Source of the DNA: Oscillospiraceae bacterium
GTDB taxonomy: Bacteria > Bacillota > Clostridia > Oscillospirales > Acutalibacteraceae
DNA length: 40,090 nt
Assembly: GCA_015066205.1 (NCBI GenBank)
Contig: SVOV01000022.1
Span: 1-40,090, forward strand
Reading direction: 5' to 3'
Below the pieces are notes generated by a model. That model ran no database searches. It was not told the DNA's origin and saw only the letters and a program-made list of their open reading frames with translations. How positions within the stretch are numbered: position 1 is the stretch's first letter; each line of letters opens with the position of its first letter. A program made the translations under genes and the position numbers. Below, in pieces: positions 22,278 to 23,146 of this stretch.

Positions 22278-22616
22278 ATGGATTGCATTTTCTGTAAAAT
22301 TGCAAACGGTGAGATCCCCTCAACAAAGGTTTATGAGGATGACAAGATCCTTGCATTCAAGGACCTTGACCCTCAGGCTCCCGTTCATATTCTTATAATC
22401 CCCAAAGAGCACATAAAATGGGCTTATGATGTAAATTCGGAAAACTGTGCCGTTATAGCTCATATCTTCTCAAAGATTCCCGAGATCGCAAGGTCACAGG
22501 GACTTGAAAACGGCTTCAGAATCGTAAACAACTGCGGTGAAAGTGCAGGACAGACCGTTCATCACATCCATTTTCACCTTATGGGCGGAAGAGATTTCGG
22601 CTGGCCCGCAGGTTAA
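22278..22616 (+). CDS. HIT-family nucleotide hydrolase (HinT-like)
   Basis: This 112-residue protein has CIFCKIANGEIPS at the N-terminus (possible zinc Cys pair) and the histidine triad HHIHFHLMGG near residue 97, the catalytic motif of HinT phosphoramidases. These hydrolyse AMP-linked substrates such as aminoacyl-adenylates. Location directly behind alaS is suggestive, because HinT can act on aminoacyl-AMP released by synthetases; that link is inference. GTAAGGAG precedes the ATG. A strong terminator follows at 22785. Confidence 0.93.
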   Translation: MDCIFCKIANGEIPSTKVYEDDKILAFKDLDPQAPVHILIIPKEHIKWAYDVNSENCAVIAHIFSKIPEIARSQGLENGFRIVNNCGESAGQTVHHIHFHLMGGRDFGWPAG

Positions 22617-22646
22617 GTCAGGTTTTGCCTTTGATAGATTCTGACA

Positions 22647-22758
22647 GAGATATTGCCCTGCGGGCAGTGATATTCGTTTCTGCGAAACGAGTGATATCTG
22701 TTCCGTCGGAACAGGTGATATATTTTCCTGCGGAAAATGTGAAGGAAGGCTTCGCCTT
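22647..22758. repeat. Tandem hairpin array with GTGATAT linkers (24-nt period)
   Basis: Three exact 24-nt units (22667-22690, 22691-22714, 22715-22738) each consist of GTGATAT, a 7-nt arm, a 3-nt loop and the perfect reverse complement of the arm. The arms differ between units (TCGTTTC, CTGTTCC, ATTTTCC), so sequence varies while pairing is kept. Shorter flanking units show the same plan: GAGATAT plus TGCCC/GGGCA (22647-22666), and GTGAAGG plus AAGGC/GCCTT (22739-22758). Loops are TGC, GTC or TTC. It is not a CRISPR, because the conserved part is only 7 nt. It lies between the HIT stop codon and its terminator, so it would be in the 3' end of the alaS-HIT mRNA. Confidence 0.8.
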
Positions 22759-22784
22759 GTTCCGCTTCGCTCTATGATTTTTCG

Positions 22785-22830
22785 GCACGGGATTCTCTTT
22801 AAGAGTCCCGTGCTGATTTTATCTTTTTTA
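22785..22830 (+). terminator. Terminator of the alaS-HIT operon
   Basis: GCACGGGA (22785-22792) pairs with TCCCGTGC (22806-22813). The inner CTC/GAG extends the stem, and TGATTTTATCTTTTTT follows. Confidence 0.85.
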
Positions 22831-22905: not shown

Positions 22906-22933
22906 CCGAAATCCGAATTCCGAAATCCGAATT
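22906..22933. repeat. Perfect 14-bp tandem duplication
   Basis: CCGAAATCCGAATT occurs twice head to tail (22906-22919, 22920-22933). Each copy is itself two near-identical 7-mers, so the tract reads as four 7-nt units. It lies 10 bases upstream of the sigma-K-like promoter. Confidence 0.85.
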
Positions 22934-22942
22934 TTTACACTC

Positions 22943-22999: not shown

Positions 23000-23146
23000 A
23001 TGTTCTTTGGTAACGGATGCAACAGTTACTGGATTCTCTTCATCATCCTTATTCTCGTTCTCACAGGCGACAACGGATGCTGCAACCAGAACACTAATAA
23101 CTGCTGCTGCAATCAGAACAACAACTGCGGCTGCGGCTGTAACTAA
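23000..23146 (+). CDS. 48-residue Cys/Asn-rich micro-protein
   Basis: Reading from ATG 23000 gives a 48-residue protein: a short polar head (MFFGNGCNSYW), a hydrophobic segment (about residues 11-22, ILFIILILVLTG), and a tail dense in Asn, Gln, Gly and Cys (GCCNQ, NCCCNQ, NCGCGCN; 9 Cys in the last 22 residues). AAAGGAGG (22984-22991) at ideal spacing, a terminator directly after, and a sigma-K-like promoter before it support a real gene. Similar tiny Cys-rich proteins occur in spore coats, where they can be cross-linked; that role is inference. No family was identified. Confidence 0.75.
   Translation: MFFGNGCNSYWILFIILILVLTGDNGCCNQNTNNCCCNQNNNCGCGCN

Follow-up and report, generated by a model that had tools for sequence, protein, structure and literature searches.

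Gut-1 RNA (Rfam RF01706) consists of three hairpins joined by GUGAAAU-like linkers, and a 2009 Nature paper is reportedly linked to it. A literature search for Gut-1 or RF01706, with subscription journals mostly outside its coverage, found a single source naming either. In the available text of that source Gut-1 is a likely non-coding RNA ('Y', not cis-regulatory), is given as 'human gut only' and was known only from environmental sequences when listed (PMC2864571, Weinberg et al. 2010). REPINs, according to the available part of PMC3116915, are short dispersed extragenic palindromes that occur as inverted pairs, show compensatory changes and are predicted to fold as single-stranded DNA. According to the available text of PMC4686876, a DNA mini-hairpin is extraordinarily stable and resists nucleases when a GNA or GNNA loop stands on two or more G-C pairs. 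For the hairpins of RNA genes it has been inferred that a stable loop may allow the growing strand to turn back on itself and be extended along the opposite arm, which fixes the stem and leaves the loop as it was; loops of 4 bases, not of 3, were enriched among the template-switch candidates (available text of PMC8794818).

The array beside the HIT gene

The window, meaning the whole stretch of DNA analysed here, comprises 40,090 nucleotides from an Oscillospiraceae bacterium. The array lies in it between the stop codon of an open reading frame which we take to encode a HIT-family protein and a terminator-like hairpin (Table 1), as the preliminary description had placed it. Because it precedes this hairpin the array probably belongs to the HIT mRNA. 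Three 24-nt units with a GTGATAT linker, 7-bp stem and 3-nt loop had been described and were found as such, within a run of four perfect hairpins (5, 7, 7 and 7 bp) at 22647-22738. Shorter units had been placed on both sides of them. There is one such unit before, of 5 bp and with the linker GAGATAT, and what follows is a tail with a GGCTTCGCC hairpin. The pattern GTGATAT-N14-20-GTGATAT has two matches in the window, both in the array, and none of 100 dinucleotide shuffles contained a match. An automated repeat search reported no repeat. A probable remnant of a leading hairpin, h0, precedes the array; in other copies h0 starts near the stop codon, and its intact counterpart GTCAGAATTTATC/GATAAATTCTGAC is found at L013, L015 and L036 (L-numbers are sequence stretches or loci). 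Folding of 22647-22745 as DNA gave z = -5.2 for the + strand and -6.1 for the - strand, and folding as RNA gave -4.7 and -4.6; a longer RNA fold of 22620-22800 was less striking (z -1.9). A gene for a small Cys/Asn-rich protein (MFFGNGCNSYWILFIILILVL...) is found further on, at 23000-23146 (+), and lies downstream of HIT in several relatives too.

Table 1. Features of the array region in the window, followed by groups of loci elsewhere.
Feature	Position or loci	Strand	Basis
Gene of presumed HIT-family protein (112 aa)	22278..22616	+	ORF; upstream neighbour of array
Probable remnant of leading hairpin h0	22617..22645	+	GTCAG/CTGAC arms alone left
Linker 1, GAGATAT	22647..22653	+	sequence
Hairpin 1, TGCCC(TGC)GGGCA, 5 bp, loop TGC	22654..22666	+	sequence, fold
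Linker 2, GTGATAT	22667..22673	+	sequence, shuffle test
Hairpin 2, TCGTTTC(TGC)GAAACGA, 7 bp, loop TGC	22674..22690	+	sequence, fold
Linker 3, GTGATAT	22691..22697	+	sequence, shuffle test
Hairpin 3, CTGTTCC(GTC)GGAACAG, 7 bp, loop GTC	22698..22714	+	sequence, fold
Linker 4, GTGATAT	22715..22721	+	sequence, shuffle test
Hairpin 4, ATTTTCC(TGC)GGAAAAT, 7 bp, loop TGC	22722..22738	+	sequence, fold
Tail GTGAAGGAAGGCTTCGCCTTGTTCCGCTTCGCTCTAT, beginning GTGAAGGAAGGCTTCGCC	22739..22775	+	close forms in most type A copies of the same genome
Rfam Gut-1 RNA (RF01706) match, 46.0 bits (cut-off 50)	22645..22726	+	covariance model
Terminator-like hairpin, 15 pairs, T-rich tail	22782..22816	+	3' of array
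Convergent arrays 3' of tRNA gene	L085, L086, L087/L091, L092, L094-L096, L101, L109, L110		by eye
'B' sites with complementary flanking arms	L014, L017, L027, L028, L029, L032, L102; not L030		by eye
'B' subtype 1	L028, L030, L102		
'B' subtype 2	L014, L017, L027, L042		

Gut-1 and the kinds of element

At the gathering score Rfam gave no hit in the window. In E-value mode it gave Gut-1, with E 2.8e-8 on 251 bases and a score below the cut-off. The alignment covers model positions 1-77, with GAGAUAU/GUGAUAU in place of the consensus linkers, and the window copy has the three hairpins with linkers of GUGAAAU type that mark Gut-1. In the window's own genome (G000, 85% complete; other G-numbers are related genomes) there are at least 79 Gut-1 matches at E<=1e-3, several of them overlapping within one array, and at least 36 over the cut-off, 150 of 495 candidates having been scored. 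Scoring of at most 65 candidates per genome gave a match in at least 43 of 59 genomes (own included), over the cut-off in at least 38; among 14 control genomes only E. coli had a match, below the cut-off. Given the score and the many matches, the window copy is therefore a Gut-1 relative just under the curated limit.

A search for further GTGATAT arrays, the absence of which was to have counted against the preliminary description, clearly found many. The paired-linker pattern matched 60 times in the own genome and in 34 of the 59 genomes (own included); the reversed pattern matched nowhere in the own genome and four times over all 59. Identical hairpins in identical order recur at several places of the own genome. 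In its stretches L011-L040, 52 of 58 inter-linker spacers are perfect stems of at least 5 bp, as are 21 of the 26 distinct spacers, against 38 of 11600 shuffled ones. Ordinary tandem slippage or chance palindromes would suit the regular 24-nt period. This explanation is rejected as vanishingly improbable in view of the multicopy Gut-1 matches, the perfect-stem spacers, the shuffled windows and the stem covariation given below, and since neighbouring stems differ from each other and recur elsewhere in the same order. The earlier preference for modular copying over slippage is thus supported.

The restriction to the human gut, stated in the available text on Gut-1, does not extend to the arrays seen here, which occur in ruminant hindgut MAGs too. 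Hairpin spacers accompany GTGATAT arrays in at least 79 of the 117 genome-contig loci listed, a count resting on the pattern and its spacers and not on the Gut-1 covariance model, and among 80 matches listed by title many are goat, sheep, deer, cattle and buffalo hindgut MAGs. The remaining 38 of the 117 loci listed do not have hairpin spacers in both positions and include unrelated phyla. As regards a phage origin, hairpin spacers were present in both positions at 8 of 65 viral-contig loci among the matches listed.

The Gut-1 motif is here an excerpt of a multicopy element that mostly has four hairpins or two arms. In elements of the window kind, type A, h0 lies near a stop codon and is followed by linker-hairpin units and then by the GTG..GGAA tail. 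Two or more hairpins were recognised in 40 of them: four in 30, three in nine and two in one. In the two-armed kind two arrays converge. Ten such elements of the own genome stand directly 3' of a tRNA gene and terminator-like hairpin (Table 1), and others have no tRNA beside them (L073). Of 44 convergent pairs, 42 carry one linker core in both arms, which makes their linkers complementary, where 18 were expected. Target site duplications, which together with terminal inverted repeats would mark a MITE, were not established at the orthologous sites compared. Several convergent elements (L073, L074, L076, L087, L095, L109) end in a conserved GAGTTCGAATTCATACGCAAAANTGCCGAAAATATC-like sequence, which is present in other families of the order too and resembles a tRNA T-arm.

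Elements of a further kind, 'B', measure a few hundred bp, have a conserved 5' part (TTGCTAAGGACAG... or AAGAGTTAATGTAGC...) and seem to lie within the loop of an intrinsic terminator. Complementary arms flank seven of the eight own-genome sites having both flanks, judged by eye (Table 1). Swapping of flanks between sites separated only weakly, own flanks scoring a mean of 8.25 with 5/8 at >=8 and swapped flanks a mean of 6.34 with 15/56, and a looser version of the test did not separate own from swapped. Independent support comes from L028, since the orthologous places in G014 and G019 carry a plain small-loop terminator-like hairpin. Group IIC introns and similar elements seek intrinsic terminators, and the arrays have the same apparent preference. 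In contrast to such introns, four 'B' loci (L017, L027, L028, L030) contain no Rfam family, introns included, beside Gut-1 at E<=0.01, and the reverse transcriptase profile RVT_1 has no match in the own genome at its 85% completeness.

Copies tend toward the 3' ends of genes. In a set of 90 distinct arrays of at least three units, among them second arms of convergent elements, a feature stands no more than 100 nt upstream of 42, on the same strand in 32, and no more than 300 nt upstream of 70, on the same strand in 45; the ORFs come from a simple script and single cases may err.

A second hairpin-array family, with linker TGATGATAT and hairpins such as CAGCTTCGCTG and GCACGCTGGCGCGTG, was seen at L011, L013:4787, L038:4432 and L083. 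It stands directly after type A tails in several loci and the loops seen obey the C(T..C)G rule. A third array-like repeat has the linker ATTTAGC (AATTTAGCTGCGAAGCAATTTAGC...), lies downstream of a type A tail at L020, L025 and L088, and carries GAA/GCA loops on its linker strand. Repeats of CGAATTCCGAATT type, found at 22908-22935 of the window, at L013:4690, in L035 and in several intergenic regions of these genomes, interrupt some type A tails.

Turnover, pairing and loops of the stems

Of the genus, 26 genomes were compared, own included; 22 have an orthologue of the HIT gene, and one of these orthologues ends at a contig end. Over 420 bases read 3' of the gene, arrays were present in three of 21 genomes, namely the own genome, G006 with the linker GTGAAAT and G004 with GTGATGY (by eye), and the stems differ in all three. 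Site A1 (L013:1602) has arrays in G000, G006 and G019, each with its own stems, and none in G014 and G017. Sites A2 (L013:4589) and A3 (L038:10661) have an array in G000 alone, among five and four genomes respectively, while at A4 (L038:4090) G000 and G019 have the array and G014 and G017 show only a terminator-like hairpin. Two copies within one genome are thus more alike than two that occupy orthologous places in different genomes, which means that copies either change in concert or insert repeatedly where they prefer to lie. At A2 in G006 (L159, G006:C20) the gene 3' end CTGAACAAGATTTAA is followed by its own inverted copy, which is absent from the four other genomes compared. Such a palindrome is as template switching would make.

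Covariation was examined in 22 of the 24 listed type A arrays, the shorter L020 and L035 being left out and the HIT copy being taken from the window. This gave 20 distinct rows with 19 pairs in three hairpin columns, the third hairpin being uncounted. In the alignment 95.8% of cells pair. Both partners have changed in 41 cells, whereas shuffles gave 7.0 +- 2.2 such cells (0/500) and slid structures 2-10; the weakest measure, that of further pair types, was reached by 19/500 shuffles. Such covariation supports an RNA-level element, that is a 3' mRNA fold or a separate non-coding RNA (Gut-1 as published) that protects the RNA or binds a protein, the pairing being under RNA selection. The placing of arrays on the strand of a close upstream feature and the verdict on Gut-1 in the available text of PMC2864571 point the same way.

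The covariation here does not settle for RNA, the pairing being near purely Watson-Crick. In 317 distinct hairpins the 1574 stem pairs comprise 1498 Watson-Crick, 4 G-T, 22 A-C and 50 other pairs, with the closing pair counted apart, the loop length set by parity and a filter of at most 1 or 2 non-Watson-Crick pairs that limits G-T and A-C alike. These hairpins are what a symmetry filter kept of 369 distinct spacers; some of the 52 that it rejected are hairpins in another register. By comparison, G-U accounts for 98 of the 1201 stem pairs in 56 tRNAs from these loci, as counted by a program that may mark only standard pairs. Where two hairpins differ at a single stem pair, the change is a Watson-Crick swap in 226 cases, one-sided in 78 and of another kind in 11, and a spanning forest biased to one-sided steps still has 91 swaps, 67 one-sided and 2 other. 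Strong selection on structure could also cause such a rarity of one-sided intermediates. A-C pairs exceed G-T pairs on the linker strand (22:4 in the first set and 13:4 in further contigs, alone p 0.049, pooled p 4e-5, values which are optimistic in that the hairpins are mutually related and not independent samples), and the wobble pairs therefore lie on the complement strand.

The loops too are polarised. Among 198 triloops read on the linker strand, C(TNC)G accounts for 113 and C(GNA)G for none; of 119 tetraloops 82 are C(TNNC)G and none is C(GNNA)G or C(TTCG)G. The complement strand therefore reads C(GNA)G or C(GNNA)G. Hairpins of further genome contigs, some of whose genomes may coincide with those of the first set, gave 46 C(TNC)G against 2 C(GNA)G in 107 triloops, and 47 C(TNNC)G against 0 C(GNNA)G in 83 tetraloops, among the matches listed. 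The G-C share is 95% and 83% in the two loop-proximal pairs and at most 50% further out. Polarised loops above GC-rich pairs match the recipe of ultra-stable DNA mini-hairpins on the complement strand, the one exception among the four window loops being GTC, which is not of GNA type. Of the 82 C(GNNA)G loops read on the complement strand 44 are GNRA, which is no clear preference, and thus DNA fits better than RNA. Terminator-like hairpins used as a control had one C(TNC)G and one C(GNA)G among 64 triloops and two C(TTCG)G among 61 tetraloops. This control separates arrays from terminators and says little on RNA loops in general. In other hairpins the two loop orientations are equal by construction (112 and 112 of 1773 triloops), counts which may represent an enrichment of their own kind, partly from other array families.

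Two further observations favour RNA. Among the 121 hairpins of the first set, 9 contain the string CTTCGG, an out-of-register form of the UUCG loop that is stable in RNA, and none contains its complement CCGAAG. RNA of the + strand also folds better than RNA of the - strand (-36.7 against -27.0 kcal/mol) because the GUG of one linker pairs with the UAU of the preceding linker. As a cause of linker conservation this pairing of adjacent linkers was rejected; it forms in GTGATAT RNA and, judged by eye, not fully with GTGAAAT or GTGAAGT. The RNA-level element has against it the near absence of G-U, the polarity of loops and mismatches toward the strand opposite the mRNA, the lack of any in-register UUCG tetraloop, and the lack of conservation of stems, linkers and presence between orthologous sites. 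Some arrays moreover follow a terminator-like hairpin or seem to lie inside one. We regard it as doubtful, with an appreciable probability nonetheless. The roles as protein-binding scaffold or mRNA stability element offered in the preliminary description are without support on the same grounds, and its interpretation as a whole is partly supported; an RNA function of the arrays is possible and unsupported by what could be tested.

Maintenance of the arrays

To what is known of Gut-1 the present results add multicopy dispersal, four-hairpin and two-armed architectures, sites 3' of genes and tRNAs, loop polarity, G-U depletion and wider hosts. Several of these features recall REPs and REPINs, and the arrays could be non-autonomous transposons, mobilised in trans by an HUH (Y1) transposase that recognises their hairpins in the form of single-stranded DNA. 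Like REPINs, as far as the available text of PMC3116915 describes them, the arrays are short dispersed extragenic palindromes with strand-specific features, inverted pairs, compensatory changes and predicted folding of single-stranded DNA, and the convergent elements with complementary linkers resemble REPINs in particular; the profile Y1_Tnp has matches in the own genome. However, array stems vary (317 distinct hairpins) while linker and loop type are conserved, unlike the conserved palindromes of REPs, and four recognised hairpins are the rule in type A. Nor does a Y1/RAYT gene consistently accompany the arrays. Among the 27 array-rich genomes (those with at least 10 Gut-1 matches, several incomplete) 13 lack a Y1_Tnp match, and the own-genome contigs with Y1 matches (C15, C19) have no listed Gut-1 match. 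A REP-like transposon therefore seems unlikely. A Y1 transposase is unsupported as an obligatory partner, and so is a reverse transcriptase, RVT_1 matches being absent from 15 of these 27 genomes, the own genome among them. No mobilising enzyme was found.

The reading we prefer, and hold about as likely to be right as wrong, is that the window array belongs to a dispersed family of modular DNA repeats (type A, Gut-1-related) that act at the DNA level and are maintained by hairpin-primed template switching. DNA-level action, folding of single-stranded DNA and template switching are what we infer. The complement strand of the linkers would fold into mini-hairpins with GNA or GNNA loops closed by G-C pairs. 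Once nucleated in single-stranded DNA, these hairpins would prime template switches within the strand, which would rewrite the stem arms as perfect palindromes with the loop retained, and the stems would drift yet stay paired. Copies would spread by some process possibly favouring terminator-like hairpins. The array may be transcribed, and transcription would not be what maintains it.

Fold-back template switching would explain the variable perfect stems, the kept loops, the full swaps and the missing G-U. The arrays share with the template-switch hairpins in the available text of PMC8794818 the renewal of perfect stems, the keeping of loops and the enrichment of DNA-stable loop types. In the latter, inferred for RNA genes, 4-base loops are enriched, whereas the polarised loops of the dispersed arrays have 3 or 4 bases, triloops prevailing, and this difference in loop length speaks against the DNA reading. 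So do the better fold of + strand RNA, the CTTCGG strings, the probable place of the window array in an mRNA and its GTC loop. Non-Watson-Crick pairs are commoner in the four loop-proximal pairs than further out, which simple early-stopping fold-back synthesis does not predict, and neither a template switch nor a movement of the element was observed on any dated branch.

Extended to the whole family that includes Gut-1, the preferred reading becomes tentative and, in our judgement, possible without being probable. The family would be a class of DNA elements in which polarised GNA/GNNA mini-hairpins template their own palindromes, with fast concerted turnover of stems while loop, linker and architecture persist, through copying and not RNA selection, and with a terminator-seeking spread.

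Strong covariation usually counts as proof that an RNA is functional. In these arrays it is accompanied by a near absence of G-U and by a loop polarity that points to DNA on the opposite strand, and a published 'structured RNA' may thus be a DNA repeat. If this is true, covariation-based RNA discovery would need a check of G-U pairs and loop polarity, and these genomes would be a natural system for hairpin-primed template switching.
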